From assembly GCF_024641065.1 (NCBI RefSeq), contig NZ_JAHEDV010000001.1, positions 186,001 to 250,000 of the forward strand: a stretch of 64,000 nucleotides of DNA, read 5' to 3'. This DNA comes from Rhodoluna sp. Lineage in GTDB: Bacteria; Actinomycetota; Actinomycetes; Actinomycetales; Microbacteriaceae. Below the pieces are notes generated by a model that had not been told where the DNA came from, searched no databases, and saw only the letters and a program-made list of their open reading frames with translations. Made by a program: the position numbers and the translations under genes. Positions 38,570 through 47,728 of the stretch are shown here, piece by piece (the first letter of the stretch is position 1; each line of letters starts with the position of its first letter).

Positions 38570-40651
38570 CTACGCGTCGATTCTGTCTCTTTCAAAGCCA
38601 TCGGCCGAGTCGATGATGAAGTCTCGACGAGGAGCAACGTCGTTGCCCATGAGCAATTCGAAAACCGATTCGGCTGCCGCTGCGTCTTCGACGCGAACTC
38701 TGCGCAGTGCTCGGTGGTTGCGATCCATGGTGGTCTCTGCAAGCTGATCTGCGTCCATTTCGCCAAGGCCCTTGTATCGCTGAATAGGCTCTTTGTATCT
38801 CTTGCCGGCCTTGGATAGTTTCTGAAGCAAATCCTCAAGCTCTGCCTGCGAGTAGGTGTAAACCACTTCGTTGGCCTTTGAGCCTGCATTTACGATCTCA
38901 ACCCTGTGCAAAGGTGGCACAGCAGCAAAGACACGACCAGCCTCGACAAGAGGCCTCATGTACCTAAAGAAAAGAGTTAGCAAAAGAGTGCGAATGTGAG
39001 CACCGTCGACATCGGCGTCACTCATCAGAATCACTTTTCCGTAGCGAGCAGAATCTAGATCAAAGCTTCTGCCTGAACCGGCACCTAGTACCTGAATAAT
39101 CGAGGCACACTCGGTGTTTGAAAGCATGTCTGAAATCGATGCCTTTTGCACATTCAAGATTTTTCCACGGATAGGCAACAGCGCCTGGAACTCACTGTCG
39201 CGAGCTAACTTGGCTGTGCCAAGCGCAGAGTCACCCTCAACGATGAACAGCTCAGAGGTCTCAGTTTCTTGGGTGCGGCAATCTACCAATTTGGTAGGGA
39301 GTGAGGAAGTCTCGAGAGCGTTTTTTCTACGCTGAGTCTCTTTGTGAGTGCGGGCAGAAATTCGCGACTTCATTTCGGCCACGACTTTTTCAAGCAACTG
39401 CGAAGCTTGGGTTTTGTCATCCCGCTTGGATGAACTGAACTTCTCCCCCATAGCCTTGGTAACCACATTGGCAACGATGTTTCGGACTGCCGGAGTTCCT
39501 AGAATTTCTTTGGTTTGACCCTCAAACTGAGGTTCAGCAAGTCGAACTGTGACAACTGCTGTGACTCCGGCAAGAACATCTTCTTTTTCAATTTTGTCGT
39601 TGCCAACTTTTAACTTGCGAGCATTCGATTCAATCTGAGAACGAAGAGTCTTAAGCAGTGCCTGCTCAAAGCCGGCAATGTGAGTGCCGCCCTTGGGAGT
39701 CGAAATGATGTTTACGAACGACTTGACCTCAGTGTCATAGCCGGTTCCCCAACGTATAGCTATGTCAACATCGCAGGTTCGATCAACTTCGCGCGAAACC
39801 ATGTTTCCTGATTCGTCAAGCACAGGAATGGTCTCGGTGAACGAACCCTGCCCGGCTAGAGTCCAGGTAGCAGTTAGAGGGGTATCCTTGGCCAAGTAAT
39901 CAGCGAACTCAACTAGACCACCATCGAATTTGAAATCGTGGCGAAGAATCTCGGATGACCGCTGATCTTCGATGTTGATACCAAGACCGGGTACCAGGAA
40001 CGCAGTCTGGCGAGCACGACCCAAAAGGTCGTCAATAGCGAATACAGCGTCTTTTATAAATATTTGTGGATCAACCCAGTAGCGCACACGGGTACCAGAA
40101 ATGCCCTTGGCTACCTTGCCTACCTCACGGAGCACTGAACCATCGATGAATGGTTGAAACGGGTTTCCGGGTTTAATGCCAGAAGCGTCATCGAATGTGC
40201 CCGGCTCGCCCCTGCGGAAAGACATAGCGTAGGTCTTACCATCGCGATCAACCTCAACGTCAAGTCGTTGAGATAGCGCGTTAACTACCGACGCACCAAC
40301 ACCGTGAAGACCGCCCGATGCTGCGTATGAACCAGAGCCGAACTTTCCACCAGCATGCAATTTTGTGAAAACAACTTCGACACCGCTCAAACCAGTCTTA
40401 GGTTCAATATCAACCGGGATACCTCTGGCACGGTCATTCACCTCAACGCTGCCGTCTGGGTGCAAAATAACTTTGATTTGATCACCAAAGCCAGCAAGTG
40501 CCTCATCTACCGAGTTGTCGATAATCTCCCAAAGACAGTGCATCAAGCCACGACTATCGGTCGAGCCGATGTACATACCCGGGCGTTTGCGAACCGCCTC
40601 GAGCCCCTCTAGAACCGAGAGATGTCTTGCTGAGTAATCTGAATTAGGCAC
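38570..40651 (-). CDS. parE: DNA topoisomerase IV subunit B
   Basis: ATPase subunit partnering ParC. The 693 aa show the GHKL ATPase (GMYIGST, EIIDNSVDEA, GGLHGVGASVVNAL), the transducer domain and the TOPRIM domain with LFIVEGDSALG and SDADVDGAHIRTLLLTLFFR. The start is a GTG with TAGCAT six bases upstream and no ribosome binding site, suggesting a leaderless message. It is located near the principal sigma factor gene as in other actinobacteria, which separates it from gyrB near the origin. Confidence 0.92.
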   Translation of the reverse strand: MPNSDYSARHLSVLEGLEAVRKRPGMYIGSTDSRGLMHCLWEIIDNSVDEALAGFGDQIKVILHPDGSVEVNDRARGIPVDIEPKTGLSGVEVVFTKLHAGGKFGSGSYAASGGLHGVGASVVNALSQRLDVEVDRDGKTYAMSFRRGEPGTFDDASGIKPGNPFQPFIDGSVLREVGKVAKGISGTRVRYWVDPQIFIKDAVFAIDDLLGRARQTAFLVPGLGINIEDQRSSEILRHDFKFDGGLVEFADYLAKDTPLTATWTLAGQGSFTETIPVLDESGNMVSREVDRTCDVDIAIRWGTGYDTEVKSFVNIISTPKGGTHIAGFEQALLKTLRSQIESNARKLKVGNDKIEKEDVLAGVTAVVTVRLAEPQFEGQTKEILGTPAVRNIVANVVTKAMGEKFSSSKRDDKTQASQLLEKVVAEMKSRISARTHKETQRRKNALETSSLPTKLVDCRTQETETSELFIVEGDSALGTAKLARDSEFQALLPIRGKILNVQKASISDMLSNTECASIIQVLGAGSGRSFDLDSARYGKVILMSDADVDGAHIRTLLLTLFFRYMRPLVEAGRVFAAVPPLHRVEIVNAGSKANEVVYTYSQAELEDLLQKLSKAGKRYKEPIQRYKGLGEMDADQLAETTMDRNHRALRRVRVEDAAAAESVFELLMGNDVAPRRDFIIDSADGFERDRIDA

Positions 40652-40802: not shown

Positions 40803-41030
40803 ATGTCAGCAAATGATGCAATCACCGAGTCAGTAGAAACCAACGAGTCAAGAGAGTCGCTAACCGCGCTAGATCGTTGTGACATTTGTGGAGCTCAGGC
40901 TTACATCCGAGTTGAATTAGCTACCGGTGAACTTCTTTTCTGTTCACACCACGGTAATGAGAAAAAAGCCAAACTAGAACCAATTGCAAAGTCATGGCTA
41001 GACGAAAGCGACAAGCTTCTCTCGCGCTAA
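40803..41030 (+). CDS. Small zinc-binding protein, DUF7455-type
   Basis: A 75 aa acidic protein with LDRCDICGAQAYIRVELATGE followed by LLFCSHHGNE; the two Cys of CDIC and the C-H-H of CSHH look like one zinc site. Very similar small proteins lie beside the hrdB/sigA gene in many actinobacteria and are annotated DUF7455; the function is unknown. A GAGGAG ribosome binding site supports the ATG. It is convergent with the GatD-like gene, with three bases between them. Confidence 0.8.
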   Translation: MSANDAITESVETNESRESLTALDRCDICGAQAYIRVELATGELLFCSHHGNEKKAKLEPIAKSWLDESDKLLSR

Positions 41031-41033
41031 AAC

Positions 41034-41663
41034 TTAATGAACGCCAGCTGCGACCCAGGCACCTTCAAGATACTTCTTGAGTTCCTGGGTTTTTGCATGT
41101 GACAATTCTGGGCACTCGACACCTGCGTAAGCACAAAGGTCCGAAACAAGCTCTTGAAGATACTCAGATTTAGCCAGGAATGGGCCGTGTAGCAGTGTGC
41201 AGATTAGGCCACCATCTTCACTAAAAAGTGGAAGTTCAAGTTCAGAGTTCACATACCCAAGGCTCTGTTTTGAGTCCGACACAAAGCTCTTAAACTCAGA
41301 AGTCCGTTCACGCAACACGGGTTTGCCAGGCAGTAGTCCAATGCCAGCGCTATCTGCGCTAGTCACATCAAATAGGTGTTCAACGCCTGAAGAAACTGCG
41401 AGAATTTTGGCGCCACGCTCGAGCGCAGAGCTGAGCACTTGCTTAAGCTCAGAGAAGCAAGAAGACAAGTCAGCCCAAGCTGCTGCTGAACCGTGCCCAA
41501 GAAGAATGAAAGACGCGTCTACCGGTATTTCATGCAGAGATTCAGCCAAGTGAACCTCAAACTCGACTCCACGCCACTCAAGCTGCTTAGACAAAACAGT
41601 CAGGTTGCCGAAGTCACCATTTAGATTCAGGTGTCTCGGAAAAAGTCCAACCAACTTAATCAT
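41034..41663 (-). CDS. GatD-like class I amidotransferase fold protein lacking the nucleophile Cys
   Basis: A 209 aa relative of GatD, the glutaminase subunit that supplies ammonia to MurT for amidation of D-glutamate in lipid II. Homology is clear at FPRHLNLNGDFGN (GatD usually has LNLYGDRGN), at the GHGSAAAWADL stretch, and at LLHGPFLAK (H159). However, the nucleophile elbow expected as CGGYQ reads S91-S92-G-V-E, so the catalytic Cys is Ser (codon TCT). No other Cys can take its place. It overlaps murT by ATGA. Glutaminase activity is therefore unlikely; the protein may be structural or have a new role. Confidence 0.82.
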   Translation of the reverse strand: MIKLVGLFPRHLNLNGDFGNLTVLSKQLEWRGVEFEVHLAESLHEIPVDASFILLGHGSAAAWADLSSCFSELKQVLSSALERGAKILAVSSGVEHLFDVTSADSAGIGLLPGKPVLRERTSEFKSFVSDSKQSLGYVNSELELPLFSEDGGLICTLLHGPFLAKSEYLQELVSDLCAYAGVECPELSHAKTQELKKYLEGAWVAAGVH

Positions 41664-42928
41664 CGCTCGACCGCCTCGGGGTCGGTGAGACCCAGGATTC
41701 TGCGTGTGCGCCTCATTGCATCAGCACTGAAAATAACGGTTTTTCGACCATGTTCTGGTCGGGGTAGGGCAAAGAATTTATCCAAGGCAATTTGCAGATC
41801 ATCGGTGGCAAATCCAACTGGAATATCTGCGTAGGTCAATCGGAGACCCATTTCAGCGAAATTGAATCCCGATAGAACATCAACATGACTCAAGTTTTTC
41901 AGGTCTACGGTCCAGAGCCAGGATGGATCGTGAACATCGCGGCCGATGGCTAAGAAAATCTGCTCGGGATTGGTGGTCAAATTATCTAGATTCAACTGAA
42001 AGCTCATTGGATTCTGAACGAGAATAAACTCGACCTCTTCACCATTGATTTTTACGATCTCGCCTCTGGCAAAAACTGGCGGAAGCTCGTTTAGAGTCTT
42101 AGTGGCAAGGGCTAGATCAAAGCTCTCCCCCAGATAACGCCTGGCGCTCTCTAAGGCTGCAATTGCATCCAGAGCAAAGTGCAGGCCACGATTTGGCAAG
42201 ATCAGCGAGCAGTCCCTACCTTGAACGACAGCCGAGGCGTCTAGCCCGTCAACACTGGTTATCTCTGATGAAACTTCTTGACGAGGTAGCACCGAGAGGT
42301 ATGTCTCTGCGGCGCCGAGCCCGTGAGCTGTATTTGAAACTATTTCAGACGCGATGCCAAACCATGTGACTGAACTTGGTTGGTACTTCTGGTTCATAAC
42401 CAGGATGTTTTGATCATCCGTGTTCAAAATCACGGCGTCGGTCGCTCGGGCTGCAACTTCGCCAAGCTTATTTCTCACCAATGCAGGGTCAATGAAACGA
42501 TCAAGTTGGTCTTCTAAAACATTCAGGACGGTCACTTGGCGCGGAAGAATGCGCTTGGTGATTTCAGCAGCATGCCCTTCGTCCATCTCAAGAATCGCAA
42601 CATCGCCAGCGATGGCTCCCCAAACATTCGAACGTTCAATTATTGACGAGTAGAAACCCTGAGCGATGTTCGCTGTTGATGGGTTCGTGAATACAACTTT
42701 GCCGTGAGCTCGCGCCATCGCAACGAGCATCTTGGTTGTTGTTGATTTACCGGCTGACCCAGTGACAACGACAAGACCATCCTTGAATTTAGAAAGCGTA
42801 GCGGCCAACAAGCCAGGCGCGATTTTACTCAAAACCAAGCCCGGCAGCGCAGAGCCACCACCGGGACGAATCAACCGAACTGCCAGACGCACTAAGCGCC
42901 CGATCAGAATGGCTGGCAGGTAGAACAA
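41660..42928 (-). CDS. MurT-like Mur ligase family protein, diverged
   Basis: A 422 aa relative of MurT, the ATP-dependent ligase subunit for D-Glu amidation. It has RLIRPGGGSALPG at the start, a good P-loop G57-SAGKST, DEGHAAEITKRILPR and EDQLDRF in the central domain, and a C-terminal DUF1727-type domain (LVQNPMSFQLNLDNL, GRDVHDPSWLWTVDL). The Cys4 zinc ribbon normally inserted in the central domain is missing (only C240 is present), and the residue after WLW is Thr340 where MurT homologues usually have Asp. The start is TTG, one base after the rpoD stop. Confidence 0.82.
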   Translation of the reverse strand: MFYLPAILIGRLVRLAVRLIRPGGGSALPGLVLSKIAPGLLAATLSKFKDGLVVVTGSAGKSTTTKMLVAMARAHGKVVFTNPSTANIAQGFYSSIIERSNVWGAIAGDVAILEMDEGHAAEITKRILPRQVTVLNVLEDQLDRFIDPALVRNKLGEVAARATDAVILNTDDQNILVMNQKYQPSSVTWFGIASEIVSNTAHGLGAAETYLSVLPRQEVSSEITSVDGLDASAVVQGRDCSLILPNRGLHFALDAIAALESARRYLGESFDLALATKTLNELPPVFARGEIVKINGEEVEFILVQNPMSFQLNLDNLTTNPEQIFLAIGRDVHDPSWLWTVDLKNLSHVDVLSGFNFAEMGLRLTYADIPVGFATDDLQIALDKFFALPRPEHGRKTVIFSADAMRRTRRILGLTDPEAVER

Positions 42929-42929
42929 A

Positions 42930-44498
42930 TTAGTTCTCTAGGTAGTCTCGAAGCATTTGCGAACGTGAAGGGTGACGCAACTTTGACATTGTCTTCGATT
43001 CAATTTGTCGAATACGCTCGCGAGTCACACCGAACTCCTCACCAATCTGGTCAAGAGTCTTTTGAACGCCATCGCCAAGTCCGAAACGGCTGCGAATAAC
43101 GCCAGCTTCGCGAGGGTGAAGCGAATCAAGGATGCGCTCAAGCTCACGCTGAAGCATGGTGAAGCCAACTGCATCAGCAGGCACAACTGCTTCGGTGTCT
43201 TCAATTAGGTCGCCGAACTCAGAATCGCCATCTTCACCGAGTGGGGTTGAAAGCGAAATAGGTTCACGGCCGTACTTCTGAACTTCGACAACCTTTTCAG
43301 GGGTCATATCTAGCTCACGAGCCAATTCTTCTGGGGTCGGTTCGCGACCAAGATCTTGCAACAGCTGACGCTGAACGCGAGCCAACTTGTTGATGACCTC
43401 AACCATGTGAACCGGAATACGAATGGTGCGAGCCTGGTCAGCCATTGCTCGAGTGATTGCCTGTCGAATCCACCAGGTTGCATAGGTAGAGAACTTGTAA
43501 CCCTTGGTGTAGTCAAACTTCTCAACGGCACGAATCAGACCTAGGTTGCCCTCCTGAATGAGGTCAAGAAACTGCATGCCGCGGCCGGTGTAACGCTTTG
43601 CCAGTGAAACCACCAAACGCAAGTTAGCCTCTAGAAGGTGGCTCTTAGCACGCTGGCCGTCTTTGATTACCCACTTGTAATCGCGCTCTTGTTCACGAGT
43701 AAGTTTCTTAGCGTTGGCTAGCTTCTCTTCAGCAAAAAGGCCGGCTTCAATGCGCTTCGCCAACTCAACCTCGAGCTCGGCATTTAGAAGCGCAACCTTT
43801 CCAATCTGCTTTAGGTAGTCCTTCACAGGGTCAGCAGTTGCACCGGTGATTGTTGTTGTCTGAACAGGAATGTCGTCGTCTTCACGGTGTGAGAGAACCA
43901 AAGCACCCTCTGGAACAACCAAAGTTTCGACTTCTTCTTGCTCGTCATCGTGGTGGTCATCTTCTAGAGCAACTATGTCAACGGCAATTGCGGCATCGGC
44001 AACAATCGCTTCGACTGAGATGTCGTCTAGATCTTCTTCATCTTCATCATCAGACTTAGGCAATTTAGCGGCCTTTGCTGGTTTCGCTTTCGCGCCAGCA
44101 GGTTTGGCGGCGGCCTTGGTGGCTGGCTTTGCCTTTACAGTCTTGGTTGCGGTTTGTTCAGCGTCTAGTGGTAACTCAGCTTCAGCCTTCTTGGCTGCAG
44201 CCTTGGCCGGCGCCTTGGTAGAAACTTTCTCGGAACTCTTAGCAGGCTTGGCTTCTGTAGCCTTTGCCGGGGCTTTCGCCGCAGTCTTAGCAACTGGCTT
44301 CTCGGTCGGAGCTTGAGTTTTTTTGGTTACGGGCTTACTCGCTGCTGTTTTGGTCACTGGAGCACTTTTCTTTGGTTCAACGCTAATGTTCTCGGGTTCC
44401 TTAATGTTTGCTACTTCGTCCCCCTGAGATTTTTCATTGCGCTGAAAACGACTAAACCATGACGTTTTGTCAGGCGCACTTTCGTTCTTTTTAGCCAA
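42930..44498 (-). CDS. rpoD: Principal RNA polymerase sigma factor (RpoD/HrdB/SigA)
   Basis: Housekeeping sigma-70. The 522 aa begin with a Lys/Ala-rich, disordered head (about 1-180) as in HrdB/SigA of actinobacteria, followed by sigma regions 1.2 to 4.2: [32 protein letters not shown] (region 2, about 320), [11 protein letters not shown], region 3 and [24 protein letters not shown] (region 4). I choose the TTG at 44498 because a GGAGAGG ribosome binding site lies just upstream; a longer reading to 44570 adds 24 residues that pass through that site. MurT- and GatD-like genes follow. Confidence 0.94.
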
Positions 44499-44680
44499 TT
44501 TGAACCTCTCCACTCCCCCACCCCAAGACAATCTCGAAGGCGTTTCGGGCATTACGAAGACCCATGTCAAATCGAAATGAATCTTCGACGACTGGGTCCT
44601 ATAGATAAGTATGCCACGCTAAAGCTAAAACTGAGTGCATTTAGTTGAAGTGCGACCCAGCTGGAAACAGGCAACGGTTA

Positions 44681-45992: not shown

Positions 45993-46811
45993 ATGACTAA
46001 AAGGGCAATCGTGACAGGTGGAACCGCAGGAATTGGGTTTGAAAATGTTAAAACGTTGCTGCATCGCGGCTATTCAGTAACCGCACTTGGGCGAAATCCA
46101 AGCAAATTAAGCGAAGTAATCGAGGCTCTGCCCAATAAAGAGAAACAATTGGCGTTCTTGAGTTGCGATTTCTCAGACTTGAACCAAGTATCTGAGGCTG
46201 CAAACTATTTGAGGCAGCACCAATGGGATGTGCTGATCAATAACGCCGGAGCCAAGGTCGAGTCACCCAAAAAACAAACAGTTCAGGGCTTTGAGTGGCA
46301 TACCGGGGTAAATCACCTTGCTCACTTCTATCTGACGTCCCAAATCTGGGATGCTGCGGCAGACAGCGCAAGAATGCTGACCGTTTCTTCGATTGTCGCT
46401 CGCACTCACGTGATGACCACCTCGAACGAAGCTGCAATGTCGACGGCAGATCACTATGCAAAGTCCAAACGCGAGAACCTGCTATTCGGTCTCACCGTTG
46501 CCAGAAAGCTTAAAAACACTAATCAGAGCTCAACGGTTGCACACCCAGGTTTCACTCGAGCAAGTCGTTACGGAGCAAGCTGGGTTAGACCAGTTGAGTA
46601 TCTTCTAGCGCAACCGGCTCGGCGCGGCTCTGAGACGGTGCTCAGAGGTCTCGACGAATCAAACGGAAGTTACATTGGCCCGGCAGTTCTGGAGCTTTGG
46701 GGAAAACCTAAGCCTGCCAAACTGCCGAGCGAGCTCTTGGACGAAACTGAACAGAATAAGTTTTGGAAAGAAACCGAGGAGAAACTCGGAATACGATTCC
46801 GCTTGAACTAA
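45993..46811 (+). CDS. Short-chain dehydrogenase/reductase
   Basis: A 272 aa NAD(P)-dependent oxidoreductase of the SDR family. The cofactor motif GGTAGIG is at 9-15, NNAG at 83-86, the catalytic serine near 132-133 (TVSSIV) and Y155-AKSK159. Overall it resembles retinol-dehydrogenase-like SDRs, but the substrate is unknown. A longer ORF from 45825 overlaps the divergent MFS gene and is rejected. Its stop codon overlaps the end of the convergent PAC2 gene by 4 bases. Confidence 0.88.
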   Translation: MTKRAIVTGGTAGIGFENVKTLLHRGYSVTALGRNPSKLSEVIEALPNKEKQLAFLSCDFSDLNQVSEAANYLRQHQWDVLINNAGAKVESPKKQTVQGFEWHTGVNHLAHFYLTSQIWDAAADSARMLTVSSIVARTHVMTTSNEAAMSTADHYAKSKRENLLFGLTVARKLKNTNQSSTVAHPGFTRASRYGASWVRPVEYLLAQPARRGSETVLRGLDESNGSYIGPAVLELWGKPKPAKLPSELLDETEQNKFWKETEEKLGIRFRLN

Positions 46812-47728
46812 ATCTCGTCCTCAGCACCATTTTTGTGACGGTTAGCTAGATAACCCTCAAGCTCATCGGCAATTTCTTCTGCCGAAGGCATGTGAGGGGT
46901 CGGTCTGACAATCTGGTTTCTGATACCAAGGTTGATTTCACTTGAATAACCGGCCTCAAGAGAGGCAACCATCTTGGCTAGGTCCTCATTTTTAGAGAGC
47001 TGCTCATCAATCTTTTTCGAAACTTCAACGGCCTCGGCTCGAAGAGAGTCGGTCGGAAAAACCAAACCTGTCGCGGCACTAACTTGTTCAAGTGCGGTAA
47101 TTGTTCCCTGGGGAAACTCAGTGTCGCTCAGGTAGTGAGGAATGAGCATTACGAACCCTGCCACCGGAATTTCTATCTGAGTCAGCTTGTACTCGATTAA
47201 GTGAAGGATGTTGCCGGGGACTTGAGTTTGAGGTTTCCACTCAGAAACGAGCTCGATGACATCCGAGCGGTTGCCTGAGACGGTTATGCCCACTGGTCGA
47301 CTGTGCGGTGTTGGAAAAGGAATCGAGTGTACCCAGGTGAAGTCGGCAACCTGCAGCTCCTCAACGATTTCAAGAATCGCATCAGAAAAGGCCTCCCATT
47401 TGAAGTCAGGCTCGTAACCATGCAGGAACAGAAAAGGCTCATTGGATTCATCGTGAACCAGATAGATTCCGAGGATCGCGGGTTCATAACTTGCGATATG
47501 GTCGCGCTCGAAATACATCACTGGTCGTCTTGATCTGTAATCAAGTAGTTCATCGTTGGCGAATTGAAGAATCAACTCATGCTTGAGGCTGCTGAATATG
47601 TGCTGAGCGAATTGCGCGAACACATGGCCCGAGTCGGTGAAGCCTGATAAACCAGCTACGAAATTCAACCCCATAGGCACTGACTGCACACCAGTGCGAT
47701 ACTCGTACAACTCGCTGAAGTGGTTCAT
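46808..47728 (-). CDS. PAC2 family protein
   Basis: A 306 aa protein of the PAC2 (proteasome assembly chaperone 2-like) family common in actinobacteria. It has GLSGFTDSGHVFAQFAQHIF near the start, RRPVMYFERDHIASYEPA, and GYEPDFKWEAFSDAILEIVEEL, with a charged, coiled C-terminus (about 235-306). The bacterial function is uncertain. The ATG is preceded by TAGGAT six bases away, which may be a -10 or double as a ribosome binding site. It is divergent from pepA. Confidence 0.87.
   Translation of the reverse strand: MNHFSELYEYRTGVQSVPMGLNFVAGLSGFTDSGHVFAQFAQHIFSSLKHELILQFANDELLDYRSRRPVMYFERDHIASYEPAILGIYLVHDESNEPFLFLHGYEPDFKWEAFSDAILEIVEELQVADFTWVHSIPFPTPHSRPVGITVSGNRSDVIELVSEWKPQTQVPGNILHLIEYKLTQIEIPVAGFVMLIPHYLSDTEFPQGTITALEQVSAATGLVFPTDSLRAEAVEVSKKIDEQLSKNEDLAKMVASLEAGYSSEINLGIRNQIVRPTPHMPSAEEIADELEGYLANRHKNGAEDEI

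Follow-up and report, generated by a model that had tools for sequence, protein, structure and literature searches.

A sigA-linked MurT/GatD-like pair of Rhodoluna lacks the glutaminase cysteine and is a candidate ligase for the interpeptide bridge of group B peptidoglycan

Introduction

The lipid II isoglutaminyl synthase MurT/GatD of Staphylococcus aureus and Streptococcus pneumoniae is the closest described relative of a two-gene operon that we analyse here, which lies in a 64,000-nucleotide stretch of DNA from the freshwater bacterium Rhodoluna sp. (Microbacteriaceae; the whole stretch is called the window below). The C94S substitution in S. aureus GatD abolishes glutamine-driven activity and MurT D349 is the Asp of the catalytic triad (PMC6113224). 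The opening of pneumococcal MurT that faces GatD is ringed by Glu201, Asp355 and Asp361 and flanked by Arg135, a conserved MurT Asn has been connected with the carboxylate of the acceptor, and the Cys tetrad of MurT is present in only some Actinobacteria (PMC6085368). In S. aureus the MurT reaction appears to depend critically on contact with GatD, and GatD_C94G leaves ammonia-dependent amidation unaffected at pH 8.5 (PMC3266927); MurT can thus still act with an external amine when its GatD partner is catalytically dead.

The window pair has in common with this synthase the two-gene operon, the central and C-terminal domains of MurT, the GatD fold, the triad His and Asp and the P-loop, but it is without the nucleophile Cys, the plug Tyr and the zinc ribbon, has the gate Arg and one gate Asp replaced, and is linked to sigA. 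With the Mur ligases MurC–MurF it would share acyl-phosphate chemistry and an amino-acid amine as the nucleophile, although characterised MurT, unlike MurC–MurF, acts on lipid-linked precursors. Members of the CofE/FbiB F420-0:gamma-glutamyl ligase family (PF01996), in which amino acids are coupled to carboxylates, are found at the same place behind sigA in other Microbacteriaceae; their fold and nucleotide (GTP for the known members) are different, and none is present at the window locus. The FemABX peptidyltransferases (PF02388) build the interpeptide bridges of group A walls, with aminoacyl-tRNA as substrate and an amine at residue 3 as the acceptor. We know of no gene assigned to the enzyme that places the first bridge residue on D-Glu in group B peptidoglycan, and the open-licence literature, which is less than a full search, yielded no paper on this variant of the pair or on a group B bridge ligase gene.

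We propose, with moderate confidence and from sequence comparison, that the pair is an ATP-dependent ligase that joins a bridge amino acid to the alpha-carboxyl of D-Glu, with the GatD-like protein as an inactive structural subunit. Together with the CofE-like proteins described below, the locus thereby offers candidates from two enzyme families for the attachment of the group B bridge. If true, an amidotransferase would have turned into an amino-acid ligase through loss of its glutaminase, and the locus might offer a genomic marker for group B walls and could explain the cross-linking of this unusual wall class.

Results

An earlier reading of the window made from its letters alone (the sequence-only reading) had described the pair as a MurT/GatD relative with intact frames, joined to rpoD, which had lost the glutaminase chemistry. 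Both frames are indeed intact, and sigA lies directly upstream. The MurT-like protein scores 34.3 bits against PF08245 and 30.5 bits against PF08353, both above cut-off, and the PDB structures closest to its predicted structure (predicted local-distance score, pLDDT, 89.2) are MurT. At E 1 no Pfam family matches the GatD-like protein, and its match to the NCBIfam GatD family NF052463 is weak (E 3e-8, under the family's cut-off); the top nine PDB matches of the protein's AlphaFold2 model (pLDDT 84.5) are all GatD or GatD/MurT entries, with GatD of S. aureus, S. pneumoniae and S. pyogenes the closest. NCBIfam equivalog scores of the pair are 85.8 bits (cut-off 800) and 33.6 bits (cut-off 450), and Cys-bearing relatives also fall far under these cut-offs.

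As can be seen from Table 1, the nucleophile Cys of GatD aligns with Ser91, in agreement with the sequence-only reading, which was also right that the His of the LLHGP motif and a good P-loop are kept. Two further positions of the glutaminase site and of its passage to MurT are changed, those of the capping Tyr and of the gate Arg. The same reading had placed Thr340 at the triad Asp; this assignment was rejected, because S. aureus D349 aligns with Asp334, which is kept, and Thr340 corresponds to pneumococcal Asp361 of the gate.

We surveyed these residues in an alignment of 229 MurT and 230 GatD rows. Loci were sorted into types by eye on motifs: T1 is the Rhodoluna type, T2 and T3 are further Cys-less types, and T4 and T5 are Cys-less types with CxxC pairs (all Cys-less pairs are called pseudo pairs below). 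Cys-bearing pairs of Microbacteriaceae without or with CxxC were labelled CN and CZ, those of the order outside the family OUTn and OUTz, and Cys-bearing loci with record titles NC. Cys was found in none of the 129 T1–T3 GatDs, which have Gly, Ala, Ser, Asn or Thr there, while the position is His in all 11 T4 and Gly in all 6 T5 GatDs, counts that are partly by construction, since the motifs were known when the types were assigned. Two samples were independent of the motif. In the first, 30 loci of the order outside the family, all 28 GatDs found have the Cys, so that its loss in T1–T3 is not a matter of chance; the sequence-only reading had named the same changes in group A homologues as evidence against its idea, and as far as this partial test goes the homologues outside the family keep the Cys. 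In the second, the Cys is present in 42 of 49 GatDs of title-bearing loci, and the seven without it come from Amnibacterium, Agromyces, one Actinomycetes metagenome-assembled genome (MAG) and four Clostridia-type MAGs.

The loss of the Cys is accompanied by changes at linked positions. The capping Tyr, present in 84 of 84 Cys-bearing GatDs, is replaced in all 32 T1 GatDs (by Asn in every one), in all 36 T2 GatDs and in at least 57 of the 61 from T3. The gate Arg, present in 86 of 86 canonical MurT, is Glu or Asp in 31 of 31 T1 rows, and Val, Thr or Ile in 36 of 36 T2 rows; at least 58 of 59 T3 rows carry Val, Ile, Leu or Ser there. Asp361 (85 of 86 canonical rows) is Thr in 31 of 31 T1 and Pro in 35 of 36 T2 rows. 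The P-loop and the Mg-binding Glu are retained in pseudo MurT, the triad Asp is among the MurT positions conserved at >97% across types, and the triad His is present in all T1 and T2 rows and in 28 of 61 T3 rows. The window MurT-like protein has no CxxC ribbon (the trimmed sequence holds one Cys), so the absence of a Cys4 ribbon stood as first reported; the use of ribbon loss as a marker of altered function was rejected, since 13 OUTn and 9 CN loci have no CxxC pair and keep Cys and Asp, as well as His where covered.

In a quick maximum-likelihood tree made with a selection of 100 MurT rows, T1, T2 and T3 form one group (Shimodaira–Hasegawa-like approximate likelihood ratio test, SH-aLRT, 100) next to ribbon-less Cys-bearing MurT, and T4 and T5 form a second (SH-aLRT 98), which requires two Cys-loss changes; rows L184 and L186 are long branches of unsure placement. 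T3 is a label, not a clade: five T3 rows group with T1 and T2. Row L172 resembles T2, and the source of L195 is a MAG whose title says no more than Actinomycetes. L172 belongs to the single-contig genome G282 (C1:1394179-1395437; L172, L191), where the MurT-like gene is split into two frames and the GatD frame is intact. The T4 lineage (L064-L067, L069, L072-L075, L079, L082) has Ile or Leu at the His position, keeps its CxxC pairs and has Asn for the triad Asp in 10 of 11 rows. Another Cys-less GatD is found with a MurT that keeps CxxC and has Asn for the triad Asp in Clostridia-type and Eubacteriaceae MAGs (L234, L235, L237, L239); a second MurT match, with a higher score, is present in the Eubacteriaceae MAG.

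Both genes of the pair are under purifying selection, GatD being freer than MurT yet not free. In unsaturated pseudo pairs (those printed, up to four per set) omega was 0.03–0.25 for MurT and 0.09–0.42 for GatD, and the only T1 pair that is unsaturated for both genes gave 0.07 and 0.17. The mean ratio of GatD to MurT divergence was 1.60 in T1 (210 pairs), 1.97 in T2 (25) and 2.49 in T3 (8), compared with 1.23 in canonical pairs (43).

The pseudo pairs of T1 to T4 occupy a defined place in the genome. Counting some loci that are truncated, sigA lies close upstream on the same strand in 32 of 33 T1, 34 of 36 T2, 59 of 62 T3 and 11 of 11 T4 loci, and in 1 of 6 T5 loci; it was seen beside none of the 86 Cys-bearing loci within flanks of about 1.5 to 4 kb. 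We searched 249 genomes of the family for MurT and re-searched 65 with weak or no matches (two more unmatched genomes lay outside the re-search); 20 of these gave MurT-family matches (11 T4, 2 T5, 6 CZ and 1 odd) and 45 gave none. We then read the region downstream of sigA in 12 MurT-less and 8 canonical genomes. In all eight canonical genomes sigA is followed by parE with no pair there, and in seven by a small DUF open reading frame (ORF).

In 10 of the 12 MurT-less genomes, from nine genera, a CofE-like protein of ~235 aa is encoded behind sigA (L339-L341, L349-L352, L354-L356), which weakens the idea that MurT-less genomes are simply without a ligase. All 10 proteins share one alignment, and all eight that were submitted matched F420_ligase (PF01996; E 7.5e-12 to 2.4e-15); four submitted to the NCBIfam cofE model fell far under its cut-off, and a PDB sequence search with one of the proteins gave no match. 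Five genera (g7, g9, g68, g77 and g78) each include a species with the CofE-like gene and another with a sigA-linked pseudo pair, and in Gryllotalpicola the CofE-like gene adjoins the MurT-like gene (L081 and L083; the order in L081 is sigA, CofE-like, MurT, GatD). For CofE itself, the review PMC8498797 describes a proposed mechanism, modelled on FPGS and MurD, in which an acyl phosphate is attacked by the amine of glutamate. Two unrelated families thus share this one place, and ligation of an amino acid to a carboxylate is the chemistry expected of each, which is our main reason for preferring an amino acid to ammonia as the nucleophile. Behind the CofE-like gene of genome G122, an ORF (L339:3178-3897) resembles an ATP-grasp enzyme by eye.

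When 80 pseudo genomes were searched for a second MurT, a Cys-bearing pair was also found in G098, G088, G151 and G262 (L328-L331), and no adjacent sigA was seen. Each of these four assemblies has at least 90 contigs, which leaves room for contamination, and for G088 the pseudo pair was taken from the search, not from a read locus. G192 holds both T3 and T4, and G149 holds two pseudo pairs.

The genus of the window offers a measured wall. Rhodoluna lacicola, a species of this genus and not the window organism, has type B2beta (B10) with diaminobutyrate (Dab), and the authors of that analysis call its Gly-D-Glu peptide characteristic of the B-type. The genome G006 is R. lacicola MWH-Ta8 (genome paper PMC4156110), and its GatD (L009) has Ala in the Cys position. 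Across this small-genome genus, 39 of 40 genomes gave MurT matches (E <= 1e-3; a few are fragments), and the 34 typed GatDs are all without Cys at the nucleophile position. The window genome has one MurT_C match and a profile search found no second MurT in it; an intact second pair, which the sequence-only reading had said would speak against its idea, was thus not found there. Its Mur ligase matches comprise four genes that we take to be of the dcw-type cluster, a presumed FolC (one gene in two pieces) and the MurT-like gene, and by the same reading of gene names the MurT-like protein is the sole Mur ligase beyond the dcw-type four and FolC in three Rhodoluna genomes. Five of the 40 genomes carry T3 with no T1 found there, and in the four of these loci that are long enough to show it (L032-L035) T3 lies at the same place between sigA and parE, which looks like replacement in place.

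Elsewhere in the family, sigA-adjacent pseudo pairs are found in Clavibacter californiensis, Mycetocola zhujimingii, Herbiconiux sp. SALV-R1, Herbiconiux sp. L3-i23, Agreia sp. COWG, Amnibacterium setariae (L194) and an Agromyces MAG (L205). The GatD of Pontimonas salivibrio (L174) is Cys-less and has lost the His too, and Aurantimicrobium minutum has a canonical, ribbon-bearing pair; a search for the wall type of the latter yielded none. Three genomes of the genus Clavibacter were searched, and each has one MurT, of pseudo type. The wall of Agromyces aureus is B2gamma, and in Clavibacter michiganensis D-Dab cross-links D-Glu to D-Ala.

Since Fem enzymes serve group A walls, we used FemAB (PF02388, E <= 1e-5) as a proxy for wall type. 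Of 88 genomes treated as pseudo-only, 5 have a match (2 of 19 plus 3 of 69); part of these 88 were typed from search scores alone, and two (G159, G474) lay outside the second-MurT search. Of 22 treated as canonical-only, 16 have one (11 of 15 plus 5 of 7, the last seven assigned by congeners). With kinship ignored, the difference has a Fisher p of 1.6e-10. FemAB was also found in 1 of the 4 two-pair genomes, in 3 of 22 MurT-less genomes (1 of 10 with the CofE-like gene) and in 4 of 6 canonical genomes outside the family. The window genome has no FemAB match at E 1e-5. The window clade behaves as expected for group B walls, but the test is weak once corrected for kinship.

Discussion

On the proposed mechanism, the MurT-like protein would use ATP to form an acyl phosphate at the alpha-carboxyl of D-Glu in the lipid-linked precursor, as its kept catalytic residues suggest, and the amine of a free amino acid, not ammonia, would attack it. 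In Rhodoluna this nucleophile may be the diaminobutyrate of the B-type interpeptide bridge. The GatD-like protein would be the structural partner that MurT needs, devoid of glutaminase function, a scaffold role for which the S. aureus enzyme gives a precedent. In other Microbacteriaceae the CofE-like protein, which is observed at the same position with its own ligase domain, would fill the same place. The sequence-only reading had already suggested that the pair activates D-Glu for an amino acid in a group B wall. This idea is strengthened by the B-type wall of R. lacicola, the lack of a second MurT, purifying selection, the sigA locus with its CofE-like alternative and the scarcity of Fem enzymes, while its arguments from Thr340 and from the zinc ribbon fall.

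Several observations weigh against this proposal. Corrected for kinship, the Fem comparison rests on at most five supported independent contrasts, of which 3.4 on average go in the same direction and none in the opposite one (sign test p 0.125; contrasts from a quick tree built on sigA and parE for 96 genomes, of which 8 are canonical), and A. minutum has no FemAB match despite its canonical pair. At least 45 of the 249 family genomes are without a MurT that we could find, 12 of these were examined at sigA, and in two of the 12 the CofE-like gene is missing from that place, which is taken by an amino-acid ABC transporter gene in G146 and is empty in G148. The pseudo types also differ from each other, as the triad His is lost in 33 of 61 T3 rows and the gate Asp361 is still Asp in 37 of 59. 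For T1 GatD the median omega is 0.40 (at GatD dS, synonymous divergence, <1.5), looser than the canonical 0.19. Amidation or hydroxylation of D-Glu is listed among the muropeptide modifications of C. michiganensis, which counts against a role in bridging alone; normal amidation of D-Glu had been named by the sequence-only reading as evidence against its idea. Measured wall types are at hand for few of the genomes compared.

The amidation reported in Clavibacter bears most directly on an alternative in which the pair still amidates D-Glu and MurT takes up free ammonia directly, with no need of a glutaminase. S. aureus MurT does so with GatD_C94G, and the triad Asp, as well as the His of T1 and T2, is kept in pseudo pairs. 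We nevertheless consider this alternative unlikely. The alpha-carboxyl is occupied by the bridge in B-type walls (in C. michiganensis and as a general rule); besides the Cys, the gate Arg, the plug Tyr and, in T1 and T2, a gate Asp are replaced; the other occupant of the locus belongs to an amino-acid-ligase family, not to an amidase family; and elsewhere in the family there are canonical pairs, in four genomes apparently beside pseudo pairs. An amino-acid ligase that acts on another carboxylate, or adds a residue outside the bridge, such as a non-bridging glycine on D-Glu or a residue on some other envelope molecule, would fit the two MurT-less genomes with no CofE-like gene at the locus. Glycine is indeed found on the alpha-carboxyl of D-Glu in Intrasporangium calvum (PMC3035309), so aminoacylation at this position is not confined to group B. 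Retention of the Asn for the acceptor carboxylate and of other conserved MurT positions, together with the rarity of Fem enzymes where the pseudo pair is present, makes this rather improbable as well.

A pair in decay, or one with a structural or regulatory role and no catalysis, would fit the faster divergence of GatD relative to MurT and the split MurT-like gene of G282. Such an explanation is very improbable: frames are intact in the window and at most loci read, MurT is under strong purifying selection and keeps its P-loop and Mg-binding Glu, and MurT matches persist almost throughout the small-genome genus Rhodoluna. Simple pseudogene decay was rejected on selection and residue conservation. 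We retain the bridge ligase as our working proposal. A wider and more tentative one, to which we give somewhat less than an even chance, is that the place behind sigA is a wall-type locus of Microbacteriaceae: a bridge ligase would have been built there at least twice from MurT/GatD by loss of the glutaminase, with a CofE-like enzyme in its stead elsewhere, and an empty locus with a normal MurT/GatD at another site, usually with Fem, may mean a switch from group B to group A.

Features of the locus

The features of the window locus are collected in Table 1.

Table 1. Coordinates of the pair, its informative residues and its neighbours in the window
Feature	Position	Strand	Basis or remark
MurT-like Mur ligase, 422 aa	41660..42928	-	TTG start directly after sigA stop; PF08245 and PF08353
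GatD-like subunit without nucleophile Cys, 209 aa	41034..41663	-	ATGA overlap with the MurT-like gene
Ser91 at the glutaminase Cys position	41391..41393	-	alignments
His159, catalytic His of GatD, kept	41187..41189	-	alignment
Asn15 at S. aureus Y17 / S. pneumoniae Y30 (Tyr capping the canonical GatD active site)	41619..41621	-	alignment
P-loop GSAGKST of the MurT-like protein	42740..42760	-	canonical form GTNGK
Glu139 at S. pneumoniae R135 (gate Arg of canonical MurT)	42512..42514	-	alignment
Asp334, S. aureus MurT D349 (triad Asp), kept	41927..41929	-	alignment
Thr340, S. pneumoniae MurT D361 of the ammonia gate	41909..41911	-	alignment
sigA (RpoD), constant upstream neighbour of the pair	42930..44570	-	Pfam sigma-70 regions; adjacency counts
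gyrB/parE-type topoisomerase gene, downstream border of the locus	38570..40651	-	Pfam, synteny
Small DUF7455 ORF between the pair and parE	40803..41030	+	PF24254, synteny

On the other side of sigA, there is a gene for a PAC2-family protein (window 46808-47728), and such a protein is encoded close to sigA at several related loci as well.

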